DNA of 46,256 nt from a virus. Every line of letters starts with the position of its first letter. Position 1 is the first letter of the stretch. The notes under the pieces are model-generated. The model had not been told where the DNA came from. It made no database searches and saw only the letters and a list, made by a program, of their open reading frames with translations. Position numbers and translations under genes: made by a program. Location: the IMG/VR virus record IMGVR_UViG_3300035670_000370, positions 1-46,256 of that record; one strand, 5' to 3'. Of the stretch, positions 714 through 46,256 are shown piece by piece.

Positions 714-719
714 ATTATA
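714..719 (-). promoter_or_regulatory. Possible minus-strand -10 box (TATAAT)
   Basis: The gene-free stretch 628-750 carries TATAAT on the minus strand, about 90 bases upstream of the gene starting at 627. No convincing -35 hexamer lies at the right distance, so this is only a candidate. Nothing else is recognised in the gap. Confidence 0.25.
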
Positions 720-750
720 AGGGAGGGAGAACTTAATTATCATGCTAATT

Positions 751-969
751 TTAGTTTTGTTTCGCAAGTTGGTCACTTAGCCTCTTACGCGTGGTAAAGA
801 AGTAAGCGAAATCCCTGGACTCGGTAATGGGCTTTTCCTCGCCACAGACGTGACACTTTCCAATCCACCAACTACTGTACCTGACGCTGTGCACTCCGTA
901 TTTATCGCCACAGTCAGCACAGGTAACTGTGGCTTGGTCTAGTGTTTCAAGTAGTTTTTTATCGTTCAC
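751..969 (-). CDS. Small zinc-ribbon protein
   Basis: 72 residues from a GTG at 969, chosen because GGAG lies 9 bases upstream (a TTG 21 bases earlier is the alternative). Two CxxC pairs (VTCADCGD and KCHVCGEE, about 20 residues apart) form an obvious zinc ribbon; the rest is polar. It overlaps the end of the upstream gene by 11 bases, indicating translational coupling. Zinc binding is inferred from the cysteines; whether it binds DNA or protein is unknown. Confidence 0.75.
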   Translation of the reverse strand: MNDKKLLETLDQATVTCADCGDKYGVHSVRYSSWWIGKCHVCGEEKPITESRDFAYFFTTRKRLSDQLAKQN

Positions 970-1126
970 CGGACTTCTCCAGTTTGTCAATTTTTTGTTG
1001 CATGTCCCAAAGTGTTAGCGCTAAGCACTCGATGTCAATTATTTGCTCGTAGCCTTTTGTGTAAATAAATTTTGAGGCAAAATCGTAGAACTCATCAGGC
1101 ATGTCCGCAAAATCTCGTTCAATCAT
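959..1126 (-). CDS. Small acidic hypothetical protein (55 aa)
   Basis: Starts MIERDFADMPDEFYDF and ends KIDKLEKSGER. The ATG at 1126 overlaps the TGA of the preceding gene (ATGA), and the 3' end overlaps the zinc-ribbon gene and contains its ribosome site. This tight packing supports a real gene despite its length. The C-terminal half could form an amphipathic helix. Family not recognised. Confidence 0.7.
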   Translation of the reverse strand: MIERDFADMPDEFYDFASKFIYTKGYEQIIDIECLALTLWDMQQKIDKLEKSGER

Positions 1127-1332
1127 GAGCATTTAAGGAAGTAATGCCAGCGGGATGTGGAATCAGTGTAGCGGATTACTGAACAACCTTCGTACTGATC
1201 AAGAACTTCAAACTTAGAGTTGTTCTTAGGTTCATCAGGTGACAAAAAGATTGCAGCGATTAAACCAGTAGCTGCAAATGCAAGGATTGTTGTGCAGCAA
1301 CCACGAAGAAATTGAATTTGATTTTCAGTCAT
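1123..1332 (-). CDS. Single-pass membrane protein (69 aa)
   Basis: The start chosen is the ATG at 1332 (MTENQIQFLRG), which overlaps the end of the preceding gene. A longer frame to 1509 exists but is a shadow of that gene. One hydrophobic segment, TILAFAATGLIAAIFL, at about residues 14-30 is followed by a small soluble domain ending YEGCSVIRYTDSTSRWHYFL. The 'GCxVxRYTDxxxxWHYFLxC' tail recalls short conserved phage proteins of unknown role. Probably inner-membrane located. Confidence 0.75.
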   Translation of the reverse strand: MTENQIQFLRGCCTTILAFAATGLIAAIFLSPDEPKNNSKFEVLDQYEGCSVIRYTDSTSRWHYFLKCS

Positions 1333-1525
1333 TGAGTTGCTCCAGTTCGTTGGCGATGGCGAGAAGTTCGTCAGCATCACACTTCCACACATCATGGTTG
1401 TGGTGTTGCTGGGTGTGGGCAACAGCAGCTCGCAGGGCGGCGGCAACTCGCTTGGATCCAACCAACGGTTTTTCGCAGTAGTACGCATCCAGCACGGTTT
1501 GTGCGGCAAGTGAAAGTTCAGACAT
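1325..1525 (-). CDS. Small helical protein, MSELS...AAQ family, copy 2
   Basis: 66 residues: MSELSLAAQTVLDAYYC, then VAAALRAAVAHT, then DELLAIANELEQL. It is clearly related to the next gene upstream (1540-1755) with the same order of blocks (MSELS-AAQ, AAALRAA, ELLAIAxELE), so the pair arose by tandem duplication. The family recalls short proteins common in cyanobacterial phages; its function is unknown. Its 3' end overlaps the membrane-protein gene. Confidence 0.75.
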   Translation of the reverse strand: MSELSLAAQTVLDAYYCEKPLVGSKRVAAALRAAVAHTQQHHNHDVWKCDADELLAIANELEQLND

Positions 1526-1539
1526 AGAAGTGCAAGCGA

Positions 1540-1755
1540 TTACTGGGTTTCAAGTTCGATAGCAATGGCCAAAAGTTCGGCTCGTATTGCTGATGCGTTT
1601 ACATCGCAGCAAGAATCATACGGAAGACGTGGCGCTGGCACCACCTGATCCGCAGCAGCTCGCAAAGCGGCGGCAATGTGCAACTGCACGATTCGAGACC
1701 CAGCACAGTTGCTGGCAGTAATTACCGCCTGCGCAGCGGAGGAAAGTTCGGACAT
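1540..1755 (-). CDS. Small helical protein, MSELS...AAQ family, copy 1
   Basis: 71 residues, MSELSSAAQAVITAS, then IAAALRAAADQV, then a central insert with two adjacent cysteines, then AELLAIAIELETQ. It is a paralogue of the gene at 1325-1525, separated by 14 bases. It is the first gene of a minus-strand run that reaches the left edge; upstream of it is a gene-free stretch holding a plus-strand RNA candidate. Function unknown. Confidence 0.75.
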   Translation of the reverse strand: MSELSSAAQAVITASNCAGSRIVQLHIAAALRAAADQVVPAPRLPYDSCCDVNASAIRAELLAIAIELETQ

Positions 1756-1835
1756 GGAAGTTGAGACGGGTCGTGAGGGGCAAGTATTAGCTGATTCCTG
1801 TTTTCAGGTAATACATGCTGATACCTGCCGTGTGC

Positions 1836-1925
1836 TACAATGCTGGGGCTGATCAGAAAGCAGCAAAGCGACTGGGGTGAGATCCGGTTGCAAGAGCGGC
1901 GGGGGTAAGATCCTGCCGCTTTTTA
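1836..1925 (+). ncRNA. Candidate small RNA with twin hairpins
   Basis: In the gap 1756-1949 the plus strand has TACAAT (1836-1841) as a possible -10. About 80 bases later comes a strong terminator. Between them hairpin 1 (1868-1891, 8 bp with two wobble pairs) and hairpin 2 (1895-1920, 9 bp) carry nearly the same loop, GGTGAGAT and GGTAAGAT, each within a GGGGTRAGATCC block. No reading frame explains the stretch, and flanking genes run the other way. The duplicated loop suggests a protein or RNA binding site. No good -35 was seen. Confidence 0.5.
1895..1925 (+). terminator. Intrinsic terminator (plus strand)
   Basis: A 9-bp stem AGCGGCGGG / CCTGCCGCT (one wobble pair) with an 8-base loop is followed by TTTT at 1921-1924. 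It ends the candidate small RNA. It does not work for minus-strand genes because the T-run is on the plus side. Confidence 0.7.
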
Positions 1926-1949
1926 ATGCTTTTACCAATGAGTCAGAAG

Positions 1950-2132
1950 TCAGTCATCAAGCAGTCCTCCATCAACGAGACCGTCGCACCACTCCTTGAA
2001 CGAGGCTTCGATCTGAGCCATGGCTTTGTTGTCGATAGTCTCAGGCTTGCGGATTATGCTGATTGCCAAGCCCAAAGCATCGCCAAGGCGATTTTCCAGA
2101 GTGTTGAGTGGCACAAACTTGTAGTCAGTCAT
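1950..2132 (-). CDS. Hypothetical protein (60 aa)
   Basis: The start chosen is the ATG at 2132, which overlaps the TGA of the upstream gene (ATGA). It begins MTDYKFVPLNTLENRLGDAL and is mostly helical, ending acidic (GLVDGGLLDD). The MTDYK opening is shared with the upstream gene, perhaps through duplication of the start region. Family not recognised; the last gene of a three-gene overlapping set. Confidence 0.65.
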   Translation of the reverse strand: MTDYKFVPLNTLENRLGDALGLAISIIRKPETIDNKAMAQIEASFKEWCDGLVDGGLLDD

Positions 2133-2644
2133 TGGTTTGCCTCTTGTTCCAGCCAAAGAGCGGCTGTATAACCGACTTCATTCTCACGCATCCACATTGC
2201 CACCTCACGAATCGCGGCGCGAGCTTCAGGTGACCAGTTGACGGCTTCTTCATCTGTTTCCAAGCCATACTCAATCCCGCTAATAGCGAGTGCCACACGC
2301 TTCACCAGTGACCTACCAATTTGGGAAGAATTAGGGGTGGAGCTGGAGTTGGGCCGCAGCAATGCGTTTAACTGATCTTGTTGTTTTGAAGTGAGTTTTA
2401 GCGGTTTACTAATTTGGTAAACCTTTGATGTTTCACGTTCGGCGGCTTCCAGTGATTCGATCCGACTGGCCAATTTCAAGATGTTGTGGCTGGTTTCGAC
2501 GATGTGCTTGTGAGCCGCAGCTTCTAGTGTCTCGACCCTGGCGCGGAGTTCAAGGATGCAAGCATCACTGGCTCCTACAACGGAACTTTTAACCCAGTCT
2601 TCACACTGTGCCCACTGTTCAGGGGTTGCTTTGTAGTCAGTCAT
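2129..2644 (-). CDS. Conserved helical phage protein with coiled coil (171 aa)
   Basis: Begins MTDYKATPEQWAQCEDWV. Residues 25-75 are coiled-coil like (LELRARVETLEAA, SRIESLEAAERE); the C-terminal part has LVKRVALAISGIE and EARAAIREVAMWM. This N-terminal 'MTDYKATPEQW' and C-terminal 'ARAAIREVAxW' arrangement recalls a family widespread in cyanophages, of unknown function. It overlaps its neighbours at both ends, which fixes both start and stop. Confidence 0.75.
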   Translation of the reverse strand: MTDYKATPEQWAQCEDWVKSSVVGASDACILELRARVETLEAAAHKHIVETSHNILKLASRIESLEAAERETSKVYQISKPLKLTSKQQDQLNALLRPNSSSTPNSSQIGRSLVKRVALAISGIEYGLETDEEAVNWSPEARAAIREVAMWMRENEVGYTAALWLEQEANQ

Positions 2645-2996
2645 CGAGTTGCTCCAGGGCGCGGCGGATGATGGCGAAATCGTCGCTGTTGTCTGGGTTG
2701 TAGTTGCGCCGCATAGCTTCCAACGCCTGCTCCTTCAAGCTCGGCGGCTTGGGACGGCGGGCGGCGCGGAGTTCTGCTGCGCGGAACGGCCCACGCAAGT
2801 TCTTGATTTCGTCGTACCACTCGGGATCCGTAAGTTGTCTGCAACACGCCTCTAGCTCCTGATCTGCGCCCCATTGGGCGGCAAGCGTACAAAGTACGTT
2901 CGGATCAGGTGGGCGCTTCCACGGCTCAGGTTTGGCAATCTCTATCCAGTCTTCAATTAGCTCCGGCGGTGGGGTGATGGTGTGTTGTTGTGTCAT
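2637..2996 (-). CDS. Conserved phage hypothetical protein (119 aa)
   Basis: Begins MTQQHTITPPPELIEDWI, with AAQWGADQELEACCRQL in the middle and ELRAARRPKPPSLKEQAL near the end. These blocks match, from memory, a family frequent in phages and genomes of picocyanobacteria; no function has been assigned. It overlaps the following gene by 8 bases. Confidence 0.75.
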   Translation of the reverse strand: MTQQHTITPPPELIEDWIEIAKPEPWKRPPDPNVLCTLAAQWGADQELEACCRQLTDPEWYDEIKNLRGPFRAAELRAARRPKPPSLKEQALEAMRRNYNPDNSDDFAIIRRALEQLDD

Positions 2997-3015
2997 GGGT
3001 GATTAGTGGAAGCGA

Positions 3016-3252
3016 CTACTGAGCTGGGAAGATGTCTGAAACCATGATGTCCCGATCCATTTGTTCTGCGTGATAGACGCAGGCGTGCAGTGGCCACGAG
3101 AGGACATTTGATCGGACTTCTTCGACTTCAACCAAAGGGCGCTCGTCTTCGGTCACAAGGTGTGCTAAATCTTCAGCGTCATAGTCATCCTCAGCCACGA
3201 CGTAAGCGCGGTATTGAAGCGTGACAAGAAAGACTTTTTTGTCGGTGTCCAT
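3016..3252 (-). CDS. Hypothetical protein (78 aa)
   Basis: MDTDKKVFLVTLQYRAYVVA, then an acidic block (EDDYDAEDLAHLVTEDE), then VEVEEVRSNVLSW. A beta-alpha fold is plausible, with predicted strands at residues 7-19 and 40-50. It lies between the frameshifted frame at 3274-3409 and the gene at 2637. No family assigned with confidence. Confidence 0.65.
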   Translation of the reverse strand: MDTDKKVFLVTLQYRAYVVAEDDYDAEDLAHLVTEDERPLVEVEEVRSNVLSWPLHACVYHAEQMDRDIMVSDIFPAQ

Positions 3253-3273
3253 GTGATTAGTGGTAATGGTTAA

Positions 3274-3409
3274 TTACGTTGAGGTGTTTTGATATGGAGG
3301 CATAAGGTCTCCATTCTCATCAATGATGCCAGCCCCCCATAAGAAACTGGCGTGCTTGCTCTGGTTCTTTGTACCTCTCAATCAGATCATTGATCTGTTG
3401 AGAACACAG
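3274..3409 (-). pseudogene. Frameshifted small gene after thyX
   Basis: One frame reads QINDLIERYKEPEQARQFLM and then stops (HH*). Shifting at a run of six Gs (plus-strand CCCCCC at 3333-3338) joins it to AGIIDENGDLMPPYQNTST ending at 3274. The joined product looks like one small conserved protein, so either there is one extra G in the run, the gene is broken, or frameshifting is used. No good start codon is seen; CTG at 3409 is a guess, and the gene may overlap the end of thyX. Confidence 0.45.
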
Positions 3410-4031
3410 CCTCTCCGATGATTGGGAATTCTTTGCAGAAGATTCCTTTGATTGCTTCTGCAATTTCTCTGTGTTCGAGTTGGGTTGATTCATGTGTCCG
3501 CAGTTGTAGATAATGGATCCAAGATCTAATGGTGCCGTTCATGAAAAGACGGGTCTGTGTTGAAAGTGGCAGGATGGACCTGGCACATTCTTTTGCAACG
3601 CCGCTGCTAACCATCTCACGGTAGAGATGCTCGGCGTCTTCATACAACTTGCTAATGCGGCGGTAATAACCACTGATTGCATCAGCAGACAAATCATCAA
3701 TACTGTTTTGACGATTCTTAAAGTCTTGTCGACGCAGATGAGGAATAATAGCTGAGCCAAGTTCACTAGTGTCTGCGTAGCGTTGACTGAATTCCTGGAA
3801 TGAGAAGGAACGATGACGCAGAATTTGCGGTGAAATTGCGCGTGTTGTTTCGATTTCAACACACATGTTACTCATCTCGTACGGTGAAAAATGTTTATGT
3901 TTAATAAGATACTTTAAAAGTTTAGGCGCTGTTTCAGTATTCTTAGCGTTTTTGGGATTTGATACCCGCGCCATTTCCACAATCAGGTTTTCTGCGTTCG
4001 GGGTGGCCCACACTAATCTGACCTGAGACAT
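3387..4031 (-). CDS. thyX: FAD-dependent thymidylate synthase ThyX
   Basis: 214 residues from ATG 4031 (MSQVRLVWATPNAEN). ThyX makes dTMP from dUMP using methylene-tetrahydrofolate, FAD and NADPH, supplying the phage with thymidylate. The diagnostic motif is present: RHRSFSFQEFSQRY (RHRxxSxxExSxRY, FAD/dUMP binding) at about residues 79-92, with the conserved HFSPYEM before it and the C-terminal LPLSTQTRLFMNGTIRSWIHYLQLR active-site region. Length is normal for the family. No ribosome site is obvious; the start lies inside the end of an endonuclease remnant. An in-frame TTG 48 bases earlier is less likely. Directly upstream is a broken second copy of the thyX 5' end. Confidence 0.92.
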   Translation of the reverse strand: MSQVRLVWATPNAENLIVEMARVSNPKNAKNTETAPKLLKYLIKHKHFSPYEMSNMCVEIETTRAISPQILRHRSFSFQEFSQRYADTSELGSAIIPHLRRQDFKNRQNSIDDLSADAISGYYRRISKLYEDAEHLYREMVSSGVAKECARSILPLSTQTRLFMNGTIRSWIHYLQLRTHESTQLEHREIAEAIKGIFCKEFPIIGEAVFSTDQ

Positions 4032-4158
4032 AGTCTGCTGCTTGTTGTAAAAGGAAGTAGTTGTCGTTAAACTTACCAATTGCTTGGTTGCATCTTAGGC
4101 AAAGAAGTCCACGTATCTTGCCTGTTAAATGGCAGTGATCAATTGTCTGTTCTTGATC
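4027..4158 (-). pseudogene. Endonuclease VII-like HNH remnant
   Basis: In a frame different from both thyX copies the minus strand reads TIDHCHLTGKIRGLLCLRCN followed by QAIGKFNDN and AADYV. This is the C-terminal half of the recombination endonuclease VII / HNH fold (DHxH...GKxRGLLCxxCN). The N-terminal half with the first CxxC is missing: upstream the same frame is just the thyX fragment read out of frame. The downstream end runs into the intact thyX start. Best read as the remains of a homing endonuclease. Confidence 0.7.
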
Positions 4159-4292
4159 AGGTACCGTAACAACCGTGGAGCAGTATCCACGTTGTCTTGA
4201 TTTTTTGGAGCAGATACCCTCGCCATATAGACGATCATCTGCTCCGCGTCTGGGGTTGCCCAAACCAGTTTGACGTTTTGCTCTTCAGTCAT
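4125..4292 (-). pseudogene. Truncated thyX 5' fragment
   Basis: The ATG at 4292 overlaps the TGA of the gene before it (ATGA), and the frame reads VKLVWATPDAEQMIVYMARV, then TAPRLLRYLIKNRQ, then LITAI and a stop. It aligns with the first 45 or so residues of the intact ThyX (VRLVWATPNAENLIVEMARV, TAPKLLKYLIKHK) and breaks just before the conserved HFSPYEM. The two copies differ at many residues, so this is not a recent local duplication. It may still be translated as a 55-residue peptide. Confidence 0.75.
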
Positions 4293-4465
4293 TTTTCGGT
4301 TTCATCAAAAGGAAGCATACAAGTTAGACAGGATAGGATCTCGCGGATATCATCTTCTTTTAAGAAATCAAAGCTAACAACAAGAGCACCACAAGATATG
4401 GAGAGGGCGTACTCGTCTGTTGTACCGTCGTAGCTTCCAGTTGCTTGGATTTTTTCTTTAGTCAT
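4289..4465 (-). CDS. Hypothetical protein (58 aa)
   Basis: Start at ATG 4465 (MTKEKIQATGSYDG), chosen because it overlaps the TGA of the preceding gene; an ATG 15 bases further upstream is possible. A beta-rich middle (DEYALSISCGALVVSFDF) is followed by a helical, cysteine-containing end. It sits immediately upstream of the broken thyX copy and overlaps it. Function not recognised. Confidence 0.65.
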   Translation of the reverse strand: MTKEKIQATGSYDGTTDEYALSISCGALVVSFDFLKEDDIREILSCLTCMLPFDETEK

Positions 4466-4809
4466 GCGACGTGTTTCCATTGTTTGTAGTTGACAATTTT
4501 TGAAACATACGAAGAACCTACCCCATACTTTTCGGAGATTTGCTTGAGAGTTTTACCTTCGCGATGAAGTTGCCGCATCGCCACAATATCTTTCTCGGTA
4601 AAAATCGAAGAGCCATGAGAACTGCCTCGAGCAATGTGACCTGGACGAGGCTGCCCTTTTGGTGGCCCAGGTTTACCACACTCATACATTTCAACGGTTC
4701 TAAATTTCTCACCACAATCAAGACAGCGACAGTAGCGTTTGGTGCTCTTTTCGGAGTGCTCAGTACAAGTCACCCTTGTATTTTTGCTGGAGCATTTACG
4801 ACACTTCAT
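4462..4809 (-). CDS. Zinc-ribbon plus HTH DNA-binding protein
   Basis: 115 residues. The N-terminus MKCRKCSSKNTRVTC ... YCRCLDCGEKFRTVE is a four-cysteine zinc ribbon like that of NrdR-type regulators. After a PG-rich linker, residues 70-115 form a helix-turn-helix: DIVAMRQLHREGKTLKQISE, then KYGVGSSYVSKIVNYKQWKHV. This C-terminal module is common in HNH homing endonucleases and small phage regulators. No nuclease motif is visible, so regulator or nuclease-derived DNA-binding protein are both possible. Ribosome site GGAG precedes the ATG. Confidence 0.75.
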   Translation of the reverse strand: MKCRKCSSKNTRVTCTEHSEKSTKRYCRCLDCGEKFRTVEMYECGKPGPPKGQPRPGHIARGSSHGSSIFTEKDIVAMRQLHREGKTLKQISEKYGVGSSYVSKIVNYKQWKHVA

Positions 4810-7551: not shown

Positions 7552-7779
7552 TCAGCTCGTCTTATCGCCCCGATTTGCGCTTTTACTACGCATCCGTAGA
7601 TTACTGGGATGACCGTTGAGTGGGTTGCCGTCGCGGTGATCGACGTCTTTTCCATCTCCTTTTCGCGCTGATCCATTTTTCTCCATGTAGCGACGAGCTT
7701 TTACACGTGCTGCACGGCGTTTAATTTGGTCAGGCTTTCCGTGATATTCGTCATATTCTTTTCTGTAGTCTCTTGACAT
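7552..7779 (-). CDS. HNH endonuclease-like protein (75 aa)
   Basis: A compact basic protein with KGDGKDVDHRDGNPLNGHPS and NLRMRSKSANRG, the core of HNH nucleases (DH + D/N-rich loop + N). Many tailed phages carry such free-standing small HNH proteins, some near packaging genes, others as homing enzymes. The second metal-binding His is replaced by the Asn-type arrangement (PSNLR) usual for this subgroup. Convergent with the gene ending at 7523; a 7-bp inverted repeat (GGGCGAT/ATCGCCC) spans the junction. Confidence 0.8.
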   Translation of the reverse strand: MSRDYRKEYDEYHGKPDQIKRRAARVKARRYMEKNGSARKGDGKDVDHRDGNPLNGHPSNLRMRSKSANRGDKTS

Positions 7780-39946: not shown

Positions 39947-40179
39947 TGAGCTACACCAAACCAGAATTACGCGAAAATCTCAAAGATCGGATTATGGCGG
40001 GCTCAAAAGGTGGCAAGCCTGGCCAGTGGTCAGCGCGTAAAGCCCAACTTCTAGCACAAGCTTACAAAAGTAAAGGTGGTGGTTATTCCGGCGGTAAGAC
40101 GGAATCACAAAAATCTTTAGACCGCTGGGGAGAGCAGAAGTGGATGACTCGTAAAGAATACGAGAAAGGTAAAGGTTAG
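39946..40179 (+). CDS. DUF5872-like small basic protein (77 aa)
   Basis: MSYTKPELRENLKDRIMAGS then KGGKPGQWSARKAQLLAQAY, SQKSLDRWGEQKWMTRKEY. This 'YTkPeLRe.iK..i..gsKGGkpGqWSARKAQL.a..Yk..GGgY' pattern is highly characteristic of a small protein found in many viruses and bacteria (DUF5872-like, from memory). It is thought to be structural or nucleic-acid associated, without proof. Confidence 0.85.
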   Translation: MSYTKPELRENLKDRIMAGSKGGKPGQWSARKAQLLAQAYKSKGGGYSGGKTESQKSLDRWGEQKWMTRKEYEKGKG

Positions 40180-40203
40180 ACTGTTTCCATAGGTGTTATC
40201 AAC

Positions 40204-40641
40204 GTGGAATTCTTGGCTCTGGAAGACAACCCAAAAACAACTATTCTGCTCAACAGAAAAGTAACAGAAGTTGGTGGGGCTTGTCCACGTTCTACAACTG
40301 ATATTAAAGAAAATATCAAAAATAGAAACTGGACTATTCAGAATTTTGCTTACGGTCCTTTAAATCCAGATGTACCTGATCCGGGCTTCTGGGAAAAGAA
40401 GGCTGAACTTTGGAACAGTGATCTTGATACTGTGCAAACAGCTCGTTGTTGTAATTGCGCGGCTTTTGATCAATCCGATAAAATTCTATCTTGCATCATT
40501 GAAGGTATCAATGAGCAGGGCGCAGCAGATCCTTACGATGTACAATGCCGAGCTGATTTAGGCTACTGTCAGCTATTTAAATTTAAGTGTGCAGGCTCCC
40601 GCAGCTGCGATGCTTGGCTGCATGGCGGGCCAATTCAGTAG
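40204..40641 (+). CDS. Cysteine-rich protein, possibly metal/Fe-S binding (145 aa)
   Basis: GTG start at 40204. The C-terminal half holds RCCNCAAFDQSDKILSC, then DVQCRADLGYCQLFKFKCAG followed by SRSCDAWLHGGP. The spacing 'CxxCxxF...C...G....GYC...kFkC...RsCxaW..GGP' recalls a cyanophage/marine phage family resembling high-potential Fe-S proteins in cysteine layout. A redox or metal role is inferred only; the N-terminal part (LNRKVTEVGGACPRSTTDIK) is unassigned. Confidence 0.72.
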   Translation: MEFLALEDNPKTTILLNRKVTEVGGACPRSTTDIKENIKNRNWTIQNFAYGPLNPDVPDPGFWEKKAELWNSDLDTVQTARCCNCAAFDQSDKILSCIIEGINEQGAADPYDVQCRADLGYCQLFKFKCAGSRSCDAWLHGGPIQ

Positions 40642-40645
40642 TTCG

Positions 40646-40861
40646 ATGAACGACAAAGCAATCGAGCCCGGACAGAAGAGCACCGAACGCTACTTGCCAA
40701 AAGAAGCGTGGGCGAGGTTGAGTCCCGAGGAACGTAAGCGTACAGATGAAAAGAAGCAACGGGCTTCTCGAACAGGTCGTCAGTTTGTACCGAATACAGA
40801 ACGTGCAAGCAAAGCACGCCGTGCCGTCGAATTAGCTTCTAGGAGAAAGAACAATGGCTAG
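40646..40861 (+). CDS. Small basic conserved protein (71 aa)
   Basis: ATG at 40646, 4 bases after the previous stop. KSTERYLPKEAWARLSPEER then KRTDEKKQRASRTGRQFVPN and KARRAVELASRRKNNG. The pattern 'LPKxAWxxLSpeER..Td.kKq..SrtGkQFVpNT..a..Ar' is a known short conserved viral/bacterial protein. Function unknown; probably DNA or membrane associated by charge. Confidence 0.78.
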   Translation: MNDKAIEPGQKSTERYLPKEAWARLSPEERKRTDEKKQRASRTGRQFVPNTERASKARRAVELASRRKNNG

Positions 40862-41144
40862 ACGCGCTGGAGAAAAAATGGGCTATACACTTGGTCTCAC
40901 CACTAAACGCGAGCCATATGAGTTTCCGCTCCGGACTAATGCTGAGGATTTTCAGTCGATGCTGGCTACCGAAGGTGGTTACTACGCAATAGGTAGTCGA
41001 TTACCACGTAGAGATTCCGGTCGTTCCCGCCTCGCTGGCGAAGCCTTTAATGTGGATTTAAACAATCTTGCTGAGGCACCAGTTCTTGAAGATCCCTACG
41101 CAGCTGGTGGTGAGGTAGATGATCTCCAAGAAAGCTTGTATTAG
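40854..41144 (+). CDS. Hypothetical protein (96 aa)
   Basis: Starts 8 bases before the previous stop, after AGGAG. MARRAGEKMGYTLGLTTKRE, EDFQSMLATEGGYYAIGSRL, SRLAGEAFNVDLNNLAEAPV, and an acidic end. No recognised domain; tail-module position. Confidence 0.6.
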   Translation: MARRAGEKMGYTLGLTTKREPYEFPLRTNAEDFQSMLATEGGYYAIGSRLPRRDSGRSRLAGEAFNVDLNNLAEAPVLEDPYAAGGEVDDLQESLY

Positions 41145-41159
41145 ATAGCTTAGGCACGT

Positions 41160-41172
41160 ATTAGAATATACC
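41160..41172 (+). promoter_or_regulatory. Candidate promoter ATTAGAATATACC
   Basis: ATTAGAATATACC lies 27 bases before the ATG at 41199; a near copy lies before 41438 and TAGAATAT before 45477. TAGAAT would be the -10. Confidence 0.42.
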
Positions 41173-41198
41173 TATACGTTTTTTCAGTACTCAATACG

Positions 41199-41375
41199 AT
41201 GCCTGCTAAAGGTAAGATGCCTCCCGAGCTGCTGGCCCATTTTAAGAAAAAAGGCGGCCAAGAGTCTGAAAAGGAATCTGATAAAAAATCTGATAAGGAA
41301 CCTACTGACAAAGAGCGTCGCAAAGAGGCTGTGAAAAAAGCGCGGATGCGGATGGAGAAAAAGAAGGCATCCTGA
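41199..41375 (+). CDS. Small Lys/Glu-rich protein (58 aa)
   Basis: MPAKGKMPPELLAHFKKKGG, then a repetitive charged stretch (QESEKESDKKSDKEP) and a basic helix KERRKEAVKKARMRMEKKKA. The opening 'MPAKGxMPPELLxHFK' recalls a recurrent small cyanophage protein. Disordered and highly charged. Function unknown. Confidence 0.72.
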   Translation: MPAKGKMPPELLAHFKKKGGQESEKESDKKSDKEPTDKERRKEAVKKARMRMEKKKAS

Positions 41376-41389
41376 TTAAGGTTGTCTGC

Positions 41390-41402
41390 ATTAGAATTTA
41401 CC
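41390..41402 (+). promoter_or_regulatory. Candidate promoter ATTAGAATTTACC
   Basis: Matches the element at 41160 at 12 of 13 bases and precedes the tail protein start at 41438 by 36 bases. Confidence 0.42.
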
Positions 41403-41437
41403 CAACAAAACGCATCGTACAGGGAGAGTAGCGTCAA

Positions 41438-42226
41438 TTGTCATCGTCTAGCTCAAACAAGCAGCCGCTTCTCGTTGATCGTCCGGCGACTACTTCTAGC
41501 TTAGTTACTGTGGCTTCAGGCCAAGCGTTTTCAACTAGCTTAGTACCGACTGCGGTTGGAAATGCGACCAAAATTTTTGACGTGGACTCTGCACAGACAG
41601 ATACGTCGATTAGTGGTGCGTATATTGATGAGATTTGGTTCCAGTATTCAAAACGTAATACCGAGTTTATTGACGCAACTTCTGCGGTTACGGGCACTTA
41701 CTCAGCTAACAGCACCAATGTTGTTGTCACTATTAGTGGTGGCCATAATGTTCAGGTTGGACAGCAGGTTTATCTGAACTTTACTTCGTACAGCAGCGGA
41801 ACCACTCCAATTGACCAGGCCGTCAATGTCACTGCAGTAACACCAACCACGTTCACTGGCACCATCCCAAGCGTCTCTGGACCAATTACAGGTAATGTTG
41901 AGTGCAGACTGCCTTTAGATTTTTGTATCTACTTGGTTGAAACTGGGTCAGTCACAAACACCAATCAATTTTTCCCCCTGTTTACCGTTAGCATTCCAGC
42001 TACTTACGAATATCAGTATTACAGTCTTACTGAATATGATGTTCTGCCTTTGATTAACCATCCAACCGTACAGGCTGGTTCAAATTTTTTCACAGCTAAT
42101 AGCGCAACTGCACCTAAAATTCGTGGCATGATGCTGAAGCGTGGACAGGCACTATATGCTGCTTATAGTGGGACGACTGCACTCACTAACGGATTTTATG
42201 TCACTGCGCAAGGCGGTTACTATTGA
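41438..42226 (+). CDS. Tail/virion structural protein with beta module (262 aa)
   Basis: TTG start preceded by AGGGAGAG. N-terminal QAFSTSLVPTAVGNATKIFD, then ISGAYIDEIWFQYSKRNTEF. A beta module is inserted at about residues 85-155: GTYSANSTNVVVTISGG, VGQQVYLNFTSYSSGTTPID, TPTTFTGTIPSVSGPITGNV. The C-terminal beta part (FTVSIPATYEYQYYSLTEYD, IRGMMLKRGQALYAAYSG) resembles small receptor or tail-tube-end proteins. The same module is found three times in the next gene. Structural role very likely, exact one unknown. Confidence 0.68.
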   Translation: MSSSSSNKQPLLVDRPATTSSLVTVASGQAFSTSLVPTAVGNATKIFDVDSAQTDTSISGAYIDEIWFQYSKRNTEFIDATSAVTGTYSANSTNVVVTISGGHNVQVGQQVYLNFTSYSSGTTPIDQAVNVTAVTPTTFTGTIPSVSGPITGNVECRLPLDFCIYLVETGSVTNTNQFFPLFTVSIPATYEYQYYSLTEYDVLPLINHPTVQAGSNFFTANSATAPKIRGMMLKRGQALYAAYSGTTALTNGFYVTAQGGYY

Positions 42227-42235
42227 TCGTTAAAA

Positions 42236-44533
42236 ATGCCCTTTGGTGTAGGCGGATTCTCTAGATCAAAGGGCAGCCCTTTTAGTGGGAAGCTCGATAA
42301 GAAATTTTCTAGTCTCACAAAATTTAACGGAACAGATAAGAGAGCGGAAATTAAGAATCCGTTTGACCCATCACTTTCTCCGGAAATTGAAAGTGAAGTG
42401 CGGTTTTACAACCACGATTCACTGTGGGCTCGATGGCGTCGTGGCTATGAACTTTATTCAATCACACAAAGCGCTTTAGGCTCAAGTGATATCGAGCGGC
42501 CTGTTAGAGGTGACTACCGGCTTTATTTTTCTTTTCAGCAATATCCAGGAGTTTTTGTTCCGGCACGTTTATTCACGTATCCCTCAACAAATCAAGACAT
42601 TGGAGAGCAACTTGTTGGTATGCGAGATACCAATTCGTTCACTTTCTATGATTATGGGCTTCCAATTCTTGGTGTACGTTATGTAGGTGCTTCAGTAGAA
42701 GCAGTATACACTCAAAGTGGAACTGTAATTACTGTTACCAAGGCTGACCACGGTTTATTTCCTGGGGATAGCGTTTATTTAGCATTTTCATCGGGTACTG
42801 CTGTAAATAATACGCTCACAATTACCGAAAAAACACAAAATACCTTTACAGTTACTGCTGGAACACCGTTAACAACAAGCGGAAACGTTGCTTACGCCAT
42901 TTCAACAGCATTTACAGACTCGCGCTGGCGCTTTATTCGAGTTGCGTTAAGGTTCTTACCGACCGAGACGGCATTATTACCAGGTGAACGGATGACTGAT
43001 CGTGTAATTGAACGCGATCCGGGCATCACTGCTACTTATAGCCGCACAGGGTCAACTGTAACCGTCACATGCACTTTAGATCATGGTCTCTCCACTGGAA
43101 ATACAATTTATTTAGACATTGGAACAGGACTTGTGTCCTCTGGACGCTACGAAGTGACTGTTACCAGTGCAACTGTATTTGAAATTACTACAATCACGAG
43201 TGGCTCAACTTTAGGGAACGCTACAGTTAACCGTCTTCTCCGTGGATTTAATTATTTAGATTATGTAGGTTATACGGTCACCGGATCGGACGCTACTACA
43301 AATGAATTAATTTTTCAAAGAGACGATAGTTACGCAGCAAAAACTACAAATGGAATTACGGCAACAGTTGTTCCTGCGCACAGAGGATTTCAAGTCGGCA
43401 GATATCTAACAACTGAATTACGTTGGCAATGTTCTTGCGAAGACTTCAGTAAACGAGATAATTACAACTTATATAGCCAACTTAGGCAGCGTAGGTTTCC
43501 TCAAACACAATTAGCAAATTTAAAACCAGGTCTTATCTTAAATTCTGACGGCACTTTTACCGAAACTCGGGATTCACCTGGTGTTTTCCAAGATATTGGA
43601 TATACAACGATAAACAACTTTTACGAACTACCTGAATACGAGGATATTGAGCGGTTTTCGTTCCAGAATCTACTTTATTATCAGATGCGGTGGTGTAAAC
43701 ACATTTACGCTTCGATGTGGGCGCTAATTCATGATGAAGGTGGCGGCACTATTTCAATTAACGCCCGGTACGAGCAATCTGGACCAAATATTACAGTTAC
43801 AGCACCCAATCATGGCCTTTTGGCTAACAGACGTATCCAGCTAGATTTTACAAGTGGTAACGCAATTGCGGGAGAGTACACAATAACAAGTGTCCCAACT
43901 AAAGACACTTTTACAATTGTCTATCCCTTTGCTGATACAACATCAGGGTACTGCACGGTATCTAATTTAAAACCACACGAATATGTAAATACTTGGTTGT
44001 TAGAACCCAGTGATCAACCTGTGGGAACTGGATTAGAGACATTCTACAAAAATTTTGATCGTGAGAGTCAACGTTTGAAAGAAGTGACCGAGCGTTATGT
44101 TTTTGATTCGCAAAATCTAGGCTGGGCTGGAAGCCAAGTAATTACTGGTGCAGGCAATAACCCAGAGCAAGCTGCAAACTTCGGTCCAGCACTAACAACA
44201 ATGGTATTAACTGACAATATTCGCCGCAATGGGGAAGGCAAATTAAGTCGGATAGGTATTGTAGCAAATAGTACAAACCGTTTTACGGGTTTAGTTAATA
44301 AGTTATTTAATCTAGATCCTAAAATTATTCAGGAAGCTAAATTTGGTTTTCTTGATAAGCCCTTAAGTGAATATACTAGTGAATTTGAGTTTGGATTTGT
44401 TGACGGTGGTGAGTACCGCAACGGCGTCCCACTCGAGAATGTAGATACACTTGTCCAAATTGAGGCAGAAACGTACAGTCCTGTAACAGCCTTGGATACA
44501 ATAGTCGATGCAAGCCTTTACATCAATAGTTAA
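42236..44533 (+). CDS. Large tail structural protein with three repeated beta modules (765 aa)
   Basis: N-terminal NPFDPSLSPEIESEVRFYNH then WRRGYELYSITQSALGSSDI. Three modules: residues ~155-225 (YTQSGTVITVTKADHGLFPG), ~263-335 (YSRTGSTVTVTCTLDHGLST) and ~505-575 (YEQSGPNITVTAPNHGLLAN), each ending in a 'SGxxxV' strand. Between them is a non-repetitive body including WQCSCEDFSKRDNYNLYSQL and RWCKHIYASMWALIHDEGGG. The C-terminus is helical/beta (YKNFDRESQRLKEVTERYVF). Probably a baseplate, hub or nozzle protein; the modules are likely carbohydrate- or protein-binding decorations. Confidence 0.72.
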   Translation: MPFGVGGFSRSKGSPFSGKLDKKFSSLTKFNGTDKRAEIKNPFDPSLSPEIESEVRFYNHDSLWARWRRGYELYSITQSALGSSDIERPVRGDYRLYFSFQQYPGVFVPARLFTYPSTNQDIGEQLVGMRDTNSFTFYDYGLPILGVRYVGASVEAVYTQSGTVITVTKADHGLFPGDSVYLAFSSGTAVNNTLTITEKTQNTFTVTAGTPLTTSGNVAYAISTAFTDSRWRFIRVALRFLPTETALLPGERMTDRVIERDPGITATYSRTGSTVTVTCTLDHGLSTGNTIYLDIGTGLVSSGRYEVTVTSATVFEITTITSGSTLGNATVNRLLRGFNYLDYVGYTVTGSDATTNELIFQRDDSYAAKTTNGITATVVPAHRGFQVGRYLTTELRWQCSCEDFSKRDNYNLYSQLRQRRFPQTQLANLKPGLILNSDGTFTETRDSPGVFQDIGYTTINNFYELPEYEDIERFSFQNLLYYQMRWCKHIYASMWALIHDEGGGTISINARYEQSGPNITVTAPNHGLLANRRIQLDFTSGNAIAGEYTITSVPTKDTFTIVYPFADTTSGYCTVSNLKPHEYVNTWLLEPSDQPVGTGLETFYKNFDRESQRLKEVTERYVFDSQNLGWAGSQVITGAGNNPEQAANFGPALTTMVLTDNIRRNGEGKLSRIGIVANSTNRFTGLVNKLFNLDPKIIQEAKFGFLDKPLSEYTSEFEFGFVDGGEYRNGVPLENVDTLVQIEAETYSPVTALDTIVDASLYINS

Positions 44534-44535
44534 CG

Positions 44536-44961
44536 ATGGCTGTTCAGATTCTTTCGAGACGTTCATCTATTGCCTTCGACAGGCCTTTTCCGATTCGCCT
44601 AGGGAATGCAGAACTAGCAATTAATTTCAATTCTTCTGATCCTGGTCTTTATTTTGCGGATAACATAGCGGCGCCCTCCACAAATTTAATAAAAGTTGGG
44701 CCTACTTTTATTGGCGCTACAGCGCCTAATACTCCAGCTACCGGCTTTAACTTATTCAGTAAAGGCGAATCTTGGCTAGATACATCAAGTACACACATTC
44801 AAAAACTGTATGATGGGAGTACGTGGCAAACACCAAAAGCTGTTTCTTCTATTGGTAACGGCAAGCCGGTTAACCCTGTTGACGGCCAACTTCATTACGA
44901 TAAGCTGATCCCTGGACTTTTTATATATGACTTAACGACGGCTTCTTGGCTTGCTACTTAA
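44536..44961 (+). CDS. Tail fibre-related protein (141 aa)
   Basis: Two bases after the previous stop. FPIRLGNAELAINFNSSDPG then LYFADN, and FNLFSKGESWLDTSSTHIQK, LYDGSTWQ, ending KLIPGLFIYDLTTASWLAT. The 'LGxxELAiNxxxxxLYf' and 'WLDTsxxxiqkLYDGStW' elements are common at the N-terminal attachment ends of phage tail fibres and their adaptors. Likely a fibre adaptor or short fibre. Convergent with 44962-45216. Confidence 0.7.
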   Translation: MAVQILSRRSSIAFDRPFPIRLGNAELAINFNSSDPGLYFADNIAAPSTNLIKVGPTFIGATAPNTPATGFNLFSKGESWLDTSSTHIQKLYDGSTWQTPKAVSSIGNGKPVNPVDGQLHYDKLIPGLFIYDLTTASWLAT

Positions 44962-45216
44962 TTAGCGACCGTGATTTAAGATGTGATCCAGTATACGATC
45001 TAATTTTAAATGTACAGCTTGCACCTCGCGCAGGAAATCTTCTTTAAGTACATAGTTCTGTATTACACGGTCTTGTAAACTGTCAATTTCTCGTTCTAAA
45101 TTGCCAAAACGTGTTTCTATCTTTTTATTGAAGTTTGACAACGCTCTTGACAGGCCAGCAAAAGCGCCTGCGCTTCCGGATAATACAGCTACAATCAGTT
45201 CTGGAGTCACTGGCAC
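44962..45216 (-). CDS. Holin-like membrane/coiled-coil protein (84 aa)
   Basis: Only minus-strand gene in the right half. N-terminal hydrophobic segment (ELIVAVLSGSAGAFAGLSRA, residues 6-25), basic stretch, then a coiled coil (RFGNLEREIDSLQDRVIQNY, VLKEDFLREVQAVHLKLDRI). One-TM plus coiled coil resembles small cyanophage proteins described as holin-like. Its stop touches the stop of the convergent fibre gene. Lysis role is a guess. Confidence 0.6.
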   Translation of the reverse strand: MPVTPELIVAVLSGSAGAFAGLSRALSNFNKKIETRFGNLEREIDSLQDRVIQNYVLKEDFLREVQAVHLKLDRILDHILNHGR

Positions 45217-45321
45217 ATTTTAACTTCTTCTTCTATTTTAAGGTAAAAAAGCACTACAATTCAAACTTGTTCTGTTTGATGATGAAATTTGTACATGTAA
45301 TAGGAGCCTAAAGCAGTAAGT

Positions 45322-45438
45322 GTGAATAGTGAGATTCGGCCGGTCAGCACGATGGCAAATTTGATAGAACAGCCTAGTTTTCAGGGTAAAGTACCTAATA
45401 GATGGGAAAATATGCAGCGCGGCCTAAAAATCCAGTGA
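45322..45438 (+). CDS. Small possible protein (38 aa)
   Basis: GTG at 45322: MNSEIRPVSTMANLIEQPSF, then QGKVPNRWENMQRGLKIQ. Coding-like, and the inner ATG (MANLIEQ) is an alternative start. AGGAG lies 15 bases upstream of the GTG. In the 260-base gap between the holin-like gene and the fibre gene; the rest of the gap (45217-45321) shows nothing else. Confidence 0.45.
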   Translation: MNSEIRPVSTMANLIEQPSFQGKVPNRWENMQRGLKIQ

Positions 45439-45449
45439 GGGTTTAGGCG

Positions 45450-45455
45450 TAGAAT
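45450..45455 (+). promoter_or_regulatory. Candidate -10 TAGAAT before the tail fibre gene
   Basis: TAGAATATG about 22 bases before the ATG at 45477; third occurrence of the TAGAATWT element. Confidence 0.4.
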
Positions 45456-45476
45456 ATGTAAATAGTTAAAGCAGTT

Positions 45477-46256
45477 ATGGCTACACAAGTACAGTTTCGC
45501 CGTGGTACTACAGCTGATATCTCCACATTTATAGGTGCTGACGGAGAAGTTGTTGTTGACACTACAAAAAAAACTTGCGTTGTTAATGACGGTGTTCAGA
45601 TAGCCGGTTATCCACTGCTGCGTGAAGATGGGTCTAACAGCGCTCTGAATGTGGGTAGTTTATCTAGTTGCGCGTTGAAATTTATTAATGATCCTAATAC
45701 AGGTATTATTAGTCCTGGAGCAGATCAGATTGCGTTAGTTACAGGAGGAGCTTCCCGGCTTAGTGTCGATTCTTCGGGTTCTGTAACAATCCCAGGCAAT
45801 TTGCTAGTCTCTGGTGCTTTTACCGGCTCCATTACTTTTGATAATGGTAGTGCTGCGGTTCCGGCGCTCCGTTTTACTAATGATCCAGACACAGGAATAT
45901 ACTTAGCTGGTACAAATCAAGTGGCCATCAGCACTGGTGGTACACAACGGCTGACTACAACCACAACAGAAGTCACATCAACGTTACCTGTAATTCATCC
46001 ACTTGGAGCCGCAGCTACTCCAAGTCTTACTTTTACCGGCGATACCAACACCGGCATCTACTCCCCCGGCGCAGACCAGGTGGCCATCAGCACTGGTGGT
46101 ACACAACGGCTGACTACAACCACAACAGGAGTCACATCAACGTTACCTGTAATTCATCCACTTGGAGCCGCAGCTACTCCAAGTCTTACTTTTACCGGCG
46201 ATACCAACACCGGCATCTACTCCCCCGGCGCAGACCAGGTGGCCATCAGCACTGGT
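45477..46256 (+). CDS. Tail fibre protein, N-terminal part (runs off right edge)
   Basis: 260 residues to the window end, no stop. Begins MATQVQFRRGTTADISTFIG, ADGEVVVDTTKKTCVVNDG: the usual 'QFRRGTTAqhsxFxGaxGEvtvDTtkxtlvVhDG' attachment domain of phage tail fibres. Then repeats built on LRFTNDPDTGIYLAGTNQVA and LTFTGDTNTGIYSPGADQVA, a beta-helical shaft. From 45921 the DNA itself repeats every 159 bases (53 codons). A receptor-binding end would lie beyond the window. Confidence 0.9.
   Translation, partial: MATQVQFRRGTTADISTFIGADGEVVVDTTKKTCVVNDGVQIAGYPLLREDGSNSALNVGSLSSCALKFINDPNTGIISPGADQIALVTGGASRLSVDSSGSVTIPGNLLVSGAFTGSITFDNGSAAVPALRFTNDPDTGIYLAGTNQVAISTGGTQRLTTTTTEVTSTLPVIHPLGAAATPSLTFTGDTNTGIYSPGADQVAISTGGTQRLTTTTTGVTSTLPVIHPLGAAATPSLTFTGDTNTGIYSPGADQVAISTG
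45921..46256 (+). repeat. 159-base tandem repeat in the tail fibre gene
   Basis: Units begin GTGGCCATCAGCACTGGTGG at 45921, 46080 and 46239, with almost identical sequence between. The window ends 18 bases into the third unit, so copy number is unknown and an assembly break here would be natural. Confidence 0.9.

Follow-up and report, generated by a model that had tools for sequence, protein, structure and literature searches.

Among the described systems closest to the locus presented here is that of F-CphI, a homing endonuclease of the DHHRN type encoded by the cyanophage S-PM2, which acts in collaborative homing at psbA (PMC6083498). The thyX locus that we describe shares with it a free-standing cyanophage nuclease carrying C-terminal CxxC, DHxH, R and CxxCN motifs, a position adjoining a conserved gene and an own allele that is protected from cutting, this last point being only inferred in the case of thyX. 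However, psbA of S-PM2 is protected by a group I intron, whereas at thyX there is no intron and what travels with the nuclease is a recoded 5' end of the target gene itself.

Other free-standing phage homing endonucleases, namely SegF, SegG and MobE of bacteriophage T4, perform intronless homing, and have been discussed together with the split genes nrdA of Aeh1 and gene 60 of T4 (PMC2988022). The thyX locus resembles these systems in the free-standing nuclease, in the co-conversion of the flank on one side only and in the fact that some insertions split the target; unlike the two split genes, in which both halves are functional, thyX is rebuilt complete from the 5' end brought by the cassette and the resident end is abandoned. 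A thymidylate synthase gene is also the homing target of the T4 td intron, with which an earlier note on this sequence had drawn a parallel. The two have in common only the type of target, since td encodes ThyA and not ThyX, and its I-TevI is a GIY-YIG nuclease lying inside a self-splicing intron.

A different precedent comes from the mobile ORFs of fungal mitochondria (Allomyces atp6; Glomus atp6, atp9, cox2 and nad3), which carry a foreign gene end (PMC3630166). Also in these systems an endonuclease and a replacement gene end are found within the target, so that a working, chimeric gene results and the native end is left over. However, the fungal ORFs replace the 3' (C-terminal) end, encode LAGLIDADG or GIY-YIG nucleases and reside in mitochondria, whereas at thyX the 5' end is replaced, the nuclease is of the endonuclease VII type and the carriers are phages. 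Homing by endonuclease VII-type nucleases, intronless homing and gene-end replacement in fungal mitochondria are, hence, already known. What appears to be new is the combination, a recoded 5' end of the target moving with a phage nuclease, for two genes, thyX and terL; no description of such an element was found in the literature searched, which lacks most subscription journals.

Here, we analyze this arrangement in a virus record of 46,256 bases, referred to in its whole length as the window, and we interpret it as the scar of intronless homing by a free-standing F-CphI-like nuclease, in which the mobile unit is an endonuclease VII gene together with a recoded thyX 5' end (the thyX cassette). 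We regard this reading as very likely (probability of about 0.87), cleavage and homing activity being inferred.

Organization of the thyX Locus

The terminase of the window has its closest named counterpart in Synechococcus phage S-EIV1 (entered as S-EIVl), with which it shares 63.7% identity across 57% of the query, and the source virus is therefore most likely a cyanophage. Three elements, all on the minus strand, follow one another in the order of transcription: a 5' fragment of thyX, the C-terminal half of an endonuclease VII gene and an intact thyX (Table 1). The presence of all three is shown, and their arrangement is not due to chance, because a sister genome has an uninterrupted gene and ten other contigs carry the full unit.

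Table 1. Features of the thyX locus (positions in the window).
Feature	Position	Strand	Evidence or remark
Resident thyX 5' fragment (thyX'), ~49 codons	4144..4292	-	Ends immediately ahead of ...H-W-SPFEM
Last, out-of-frame codons of the fragment ORF (LITAI stop), belonging to the cassette	4125..4143	-	Same bases as the IDHC region of the L083/L086 endonuclease
Endonuclease VII C-terminal half (IDHCHLTGKIRGLLCLRCNQAIGKFNDNYFLLQQAADYV), limits approximate	4027..4143	-	PF02945; ~107 N-terminal residues, including the first zinc CxxC, missing
Out-of-frame endonuclease continuation inside thyX (overlap)	3945..4031	-	First stop reached after 86 nt of thyX
Complete chimeric thyX (214 aa) with a 5' end of the cassette type and a 3' part of the L001 type	3387..4031	-	Thy1 E = 4e-46; identity profile; trees
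Recoded thyX 5' end common to all cassettes (codons 1-46)	3894..4031	-	One clade, 99/99; nucleotide identity profile
Codon 48, Phe (TTT), where resident alleles have Trp (TGG), inferred cut site	3888..3890	-	Phe/Tyr in cassettes, Trp in most others
Tract absent from the sister genome G001, read as donor DNA or co-conversion tract	1333..4143	.	G001 matches at 719-1332, then from 4144; includes the L001-like 3236-3911

The fragment belongs to an ORF of 55 amino acids (4292-4125), residues 6-49 of which match ThyX (phrog_85, E = 1.2e-7; Pfam Thy1, E = 0.008). Together with its upstream flank it is 91.5% identical in nucleotides to the 5' end of the intact thyX of L131/L132, up to exactly position 4144. 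At this point the homology stops, after ...LIKNR, where the resident sequence reads ...LIKNRHWSPFEM; the HWSPFEM segment that follows LIKNR in the closest relatives of the fragment is absent from it. Two profiles recognize the endonuclease frame (4263-3943), namely PF02945 (E = 2.4e-15, profile positions 28-81 of 82) and phrog_2633 (E = 2.3e-17); the remnant keeps DHCH and CLRCN and is 92-94% identical in nucleotides to the endonuclease genes of L083-L086, and the extent of its missing N-terminal part follows from an alignment with the full-length proteins. The remnant has lost the first CxxC pair, on which zinc or DNA binding depends in T4 endonuclease VII as well as in F-CphI (PMC6083498), and the nuclease of the window is therefore probably inactive. 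The intact thyX keeps the RHRx7S motif and is likely functional; both of these judgments are inferred from sequence alone. The two thyX N-termini of the window share about 64% protein identity. The earlier note had described a thyX 5' fragment stopping just before an H-x-SPYEM segment, the back half of an endonuclease VII/HNH domain following it in another frame, and the entry of this remnant into the start of a full, clearly diverged thyX; all three statements held.

Two further minus-strand ORFs of the window could be other nuclease-related mobile genes: one at 4462-4809, with a zinc ribbon, a helix-turn-helix and a match to an HNH-endonuclease family (phrog_20467, E = 2e-12), and one at 7552-7779, which is small and of the HNH_3 type (E = 4e-7).

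Comparison With Insertion-Free Relatives

Insertion-free relatives of the window exist (L131/L132 and L001), and the most informative comparison is with the sister genome G001, the contig of 46,710 bases behind L131. The two are collinear over long stretches at 81-97% identity, from window position 4144 to 39,998 and again over 719-1332, window positions 40001-46256 having been left out of this DNA comparison. In G001 a single uninterrupted thyX, with the same upstream gene as in the window, occupies the locus, and no endonuclease is present at this position. The identity between the two genomes ends exactly at 4144, within thyX. From 4143 to 1333 the window has other DNA, consisting of the remnant of the endonuclease, a thyX that differs in its 5' end and a stretch resembling L001, a relative with one thyX and no endonuclease (93% identity over 3911-3236); inside this tract, G001 matches only diverged thyX and short pieces. 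Compared with G001, the resident gene is broken at one point and about 2.8 kb of different DNA lies to one side, which is shown as sequence, the origin of this DNA from a donor being inferred.

The insertion is thus polymorphic at thyX, with the site empty in G001 and many relatives and filled in L083-L092 and the window. Co-conversion of the flank from the inferred cut site is seen in the difference between the window and G001 over 4143-1333 and in the chimeric thyX genes of the other cassettes.

On the 3' side of thyX, window positions 719-3390 hold a shuffled block of short genes whose order differs in L001, L086 and G001; the counterpart of positions 1123-1342 is found directly upstream of thyX in L001.

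Complete Cassettes in Other Viral Contigs

A scan of IMG/VR contigs with the endonuclease remnant of the window recovered ten contigs (L083-L092), in which a full-length endonuclease VII ORF of about 173 amino acids lies directly upstream of thyX and enters it out of frame by 80-110 nt. The overlap frame is open for 77-107 nt in all eight cassettes tested; in comparison, 75 nt or more are open in 44 of the 159 other thyX genes. The thyX N-termini of the ten contigs are 83-100% identical in protein sequence to that of the window, compared with at most about 75% for resident-type N-termini. Three of them (L084, L088 and L092) retain a resident thyX 5' fragment upstream of the intact endonuclease and reproduce the layout of the window with the nuclease whole.

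No thyX cassettes beyond these ten contigs were found in a search with the cassette thyX N-terminus. The ten correspond to fewer independent units, L089/L090/L091 being apparently identical at the thyX N-terminus and L088/L092 nearly so. The cassette count is based on pattern scans of one collection, in which related cassettes are in places counted as separate loci, and all records are metagenomic assemblies. In L084 the cassette thyX changes reading frame near codon 95 (4451-4511, overlapping matches in two frames), possibly owing to an insertion, a frameshift or an assembly error.

The Break Point and the Recoding of the thyX Start

The thyX fragments of L084, L088, L092 and the window end within about 8 bases of each other, at CAYTGGAGT, the break being 0-6 nt after TGG in the three cassettes and 1-3 nt before TGG in the window. 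With a slash marking the break, the fragment ends are CACTGG/TT in L084, CATTGGAGT/ in L088 and L092, and AGACA/ in the window, where the sister reads AGGCACTGG. At the break, 126 of the 131 non-cassette thyX loci that could be scored have a Trp codon (TGG), whereas all cassette loci and the window have Phe or Tyr there (Fisher p = 1.7e-13, a value that is overstated, as the sequences are related). Four non-cassette loci (L155, L172, L179 and L181) have Phe or Tyr at the inferred cut site, which might reflect either resistance or unrelated variation; one of them, L155, is in its 3' part the closest relative of the cassette L089.

All cassettes combine the change from Trp to Phe/Tyr with a wider recoding at the inferred site. 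Lacking both the Trp codon and the surrounding sequence, the cassette thyX would resist further cutting, a property that we consider likely on the basis of sequence alone. It cannot be ruled out that Phe/Tyr at codon 48 was merely inherited and not selected for resistance, because this codon is inside, or close to, the stretch derived from the cassette.

One Cassette on Several thyX Backgrounds

In a tree of thyX codons 1-46, all seven of the cassette sequences included group together in a single clade (support 99/99). In the tree of codons 60-210 the same sequences scatter: the window groups with L001 (100/99), L083 with L147 (100/100), L086 with L145 (100/100), L089 with L155 (93/98) and L087 with L003 and L133 (97/79). 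The 3' parts of the cassettes are associated with different endonuclease-free alleles, and a single clade is rejected for them (p-AU 6.5e-8). The mean nucleotide identity of the window thyX to the cassettes is 0.93 over codons 1-16 and 0.85 over codons 17-32, vs. 0.57 and 0.56 to the empty alleles, and in cassette thyX genes the identity switches sides around codons 33-70. Compared with L001, the thyX of the window is 52-65% identical in the first 144 nt and 94-100% identical from nt 241 nearly to the end.

The single clade of the 5' parts, the scattering of the 3' parts and the switch in identity together indicate that the mobile unit is the endonuclease with the recoded thyX 5' end, and one cassette has been joined to different resident thyX genes more than once. 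The earlier claim that a donor thyX came along with the endonuclease is refined by this result: the donor thyX is itself a chimera, with a foreign N-terminus joined to a resident-type 3' part, and the mobile cassette comprises no more of it than the 5' part. In the window, the fragment is L131-like and the thyX 3' part L001-like, from which we infer that the chimera probably formed earlier, in a donor, and arrived ready-made. Since these two parts resemble different relatives, ordinary recombination beside the nuclease gene could also account for part of the pattern.

The Cassette Endonuclease

In the full-length relatives CAIC, DHCH, IRG and CLRCN are invariant and compose the motif CX2-4C...DHxH...R...CX2CN; the copy of the window alone is without the full motif. 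The catalytic motif is C-terminal, PF02945 covering residues ~72-146 of the 146 aligned. By motif and layout, the intact cassette endonuclease is likely to be a homing endonuclease of the F-CphI type (DHHRN), although sequence-specific cutting is inferred.

Its neighbours in sequence space include endonuclease VII genes located between psbA and psbD in cyanophage contigs (L219, L221-L224, L232, L242-L244, L247, L249 and L250), which are likely relatives of F-CphI; this is the setting in which F-CphI itself was found (PMC6083498). In named phages, all endonuclease VII relatives are less than 60% identical to the thyX-cassette protein, and in the regions of FE44, K5, Kaylissa and CHRF_20120, according to annotation, endonuclease VII lies between other genes with no duplicated gene start.

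A Probable Second Target, terL, and Mirror Arrangements

A search for endonuclease VII genes flanked on either side by duplicated sequence led to terL, the gene for the terminase large subunit, in another phage group. The design is the same, with a resident terL 5' fragment followed by an endonuclease VII gene and by a terL whose first codons are recoded, and was found first in L109/L457, L111 and L398 and then in a dozen contigs altogether (listed as L109/L457, L111/L368/L452, L398/L453, L454-L456 and L458-L463). The nucleases of the thyX and terL cassettes are distant members of one family (Pfam PF02945). The resident terL fragment ends after WQQEVFA (or WQQEVF), near codon 18, and is followed by the endonuclease VII ORF and by a restarted terL in which the first 16-18 codons are recoded, e.g., WQQIVFSD for WQQEVFAD. 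The resident stretch corresponding to CAYTGGAGT of thyX is GAAGTCTTTGC, cutting at this place being inferred. The terL of L111 is 69-83% identical to 12 listed empty relatives in the first 48 bases and mostly 90-100% identical from base 75; in the best-sampled terL group, the fragment is 96-100% identical to empty alleles and the incoming start only 84-87%.

A conserved left leader, TTAAAGA...GATATAATT...CCATCTATAAAGG, precedes the nuclease start in the terL cassettes; a promoter scan at their left end gave nothing above chance, and a TGTGATATAAT-like stretch is visible there. Ten nuclease-free terL alleles (L371, L372, L374, L375, L379, L387, L389, L420, L436 and L447) have the cassette-type site (QQIVFSD) behind a resident-type start, and might represent resistant alleles derived from partial conversion, which is inferred.

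At thyX, mirror versions involving the 3' end were found only in L148 and, with another nuclease-like ORF, in L086, L145 and L146. In L148 (3977-5220) a foreign thyX 3' end is followed by endonuclease VII and then by the leftover resident thyX 3' end; L086 (4152-5463) and L145/L146 (3995-5315) have this layout with a different Cys/His-rich ORF showing no Pfam match, and L086 carries both a 5' and a 3' cassette. These four cases resemble the fungal mitochondrial ORFs with foreign C-terminal ends (PMC3630166), L148 being the 3' phage version. Separate observations are the partial second copies of the thyX 3' end in L197 and L199 (5147-5293) and, in L016 (5464-5658), a plain 91% tandem duplication of this end with no nuclease between the copies.

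A Proposed Model of Intronless Homing at thyX

The locus shows the traits of intronless homing, i.e., empty and filled alleles, a break at one site and one-sided co-conversion, and it likely adds to them a protection carried as the recoded 5' end of the target itself, the resistance being inferred. The proposal of the earlier note, that the locus is a homing scar left when an endonuclease with a donor thyX entered a resident thyX, is supported, with cleavage and homing activity inferred; the three checks that it had suggested, on insertion-free relatives, full-length endonucleases and the two thyX N-termini, all came out in its favour. Neither of the outcomes that would have refuted it, a fragment without thyX history or a missing endonuclease VII match, was met: in the sister genome the sequence of the fragment forms part of an intact thyX, and endonuclease VII is matched strongly.

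The proposed sequence of events begins in a co-infected cell, where the nuclease would cut the resident thyX near CAY-TGG. The right side would be repaired from a cassette-bearing donor, acquiring the endonuclease, the recoded 5' end, the thyX 3' part and the flank; the sequence of these parts is shown and the timing is inferred. The left resident end, which at that point has no homology to the donor cassette, would be joined without extended homology, within the endonuclease gene at the IDHC codons; the junction is shown and its mechanism is inferred. Joining at this place would leave the resident 5' fragment and truncate the nuclease. The incoming thyX restores a complete gene, as the sequence demonstrates, and would resist further cutting.

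A later loss of the nuclease N-terminal half, as the earlier note supposed, is not required. We lean, without much margin, toward a loss during the insertion, because the window and the intact insertions have their left break at the same place, a coincidence that a deletion occurring later at random would not have to produce. During repair, the broken resident end may have been joined into the cassette at the IDHC codons, where resident ACACTGGTC/ACATTGGTC types face the cassette CCATTGATCAC; a later deletion between the same short similar sequences is possible and would look identical. The remnant presumably could not be removed without harming thyX, because the incoming thyX has its start region inside the half that was kept.

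Alternative Explanations

The rival that survives best, though unlikely, is passive module shuffling, in which ordinary recombination between cyanophages, both homologous and non-homologous, paired an endonuclease VII gene with a foreign thyX 5' end and the pair then spread without targeted cutting. In its favour, the region is a mosaic of small genes whose order differs from those of L001 and L086, and nuclease genes are found at recombination boundaries in phages generally (PMC10448857). However, separate events have broken the resident gene within about 8 bases, at the limit of the recoded 5' end; the 5' ends of the cassettes form a single clade and are joined to several different 3' parts; and the same architecture arose on terL with another endonuclease VII.

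Much less likely is that the endonuclease VII is a phage Holliday-junction resolvase, only incidentally adjacent to thyX, and that the fragment is an unrelated thyX duplication. T4 endonuclease VII, which is among the best solved-structure matches of the cassette nuclease, is indeed a resolvase with the same catalytic motif; however, the cassette protein has the motif in its C-terminal part, like F-CphI, whereas in T4 endonuclease VII it is N-terminal (PMC6083498), its gene is optional, being absent from this place in the sister and truncated in the window, and in intact cassettes the nuclease always overlaps the start of the recoded thyX.

The expression of the three elements as one gene, through a group I intron, an intein or programmed frameshifting, is very unlikely: the order thyX 5' piece, nuclease, thyX recalls an intron-borne homing endonuclease, but an Rfam search of the region at E up to 1 gave no match, and thus no sign of a recognizable group I intron or of another known RNA, stop codons close the frames, and the downstream thyX is complete with its own start and needs no splicing. 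Two simpler views of the fragment were also rejected, namely a tandem duplication, as the fragment is 78-92% identical in amino acids to the thyX of other phages vs. 64% to the intact thyX of the window, and a separate conserved gene, as in G001 the same stretch is the start of an intact thyX.

Implications for Phage Homing Endonucleases

Beyond the single locus, the favoured homing reading can be extended to a bolder one, which seems likely to us: a class of phage homing cassettes that combine an endonuclease VII-type nuclease with a recoded, cut-resistant 5' end of their own essential target, and that evolved for at least two unrelated genes, thyX and terL. Each invasion would break and rebuild the resident gene, leaving broken 5' fragments, truncated nucleases and nuclease-free resistant alleles; cutting and resistance are here inferred. 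If this is true, such cassettes would be a natural counterpart of recoded-rescue gene drives, complete with possible resistant alleles, and phage homing endonucleases could use a recoded piece of the target coding sequence for the protection that introns, inteins or sites in neighbouring genes otherwise give. It would also provide a rule for finding them, a gene 5' end duplicated on both sides of a nuclease with the recoding ending at the cut site, and would account for short broken gene starts and chimeric genes in phage genomes.
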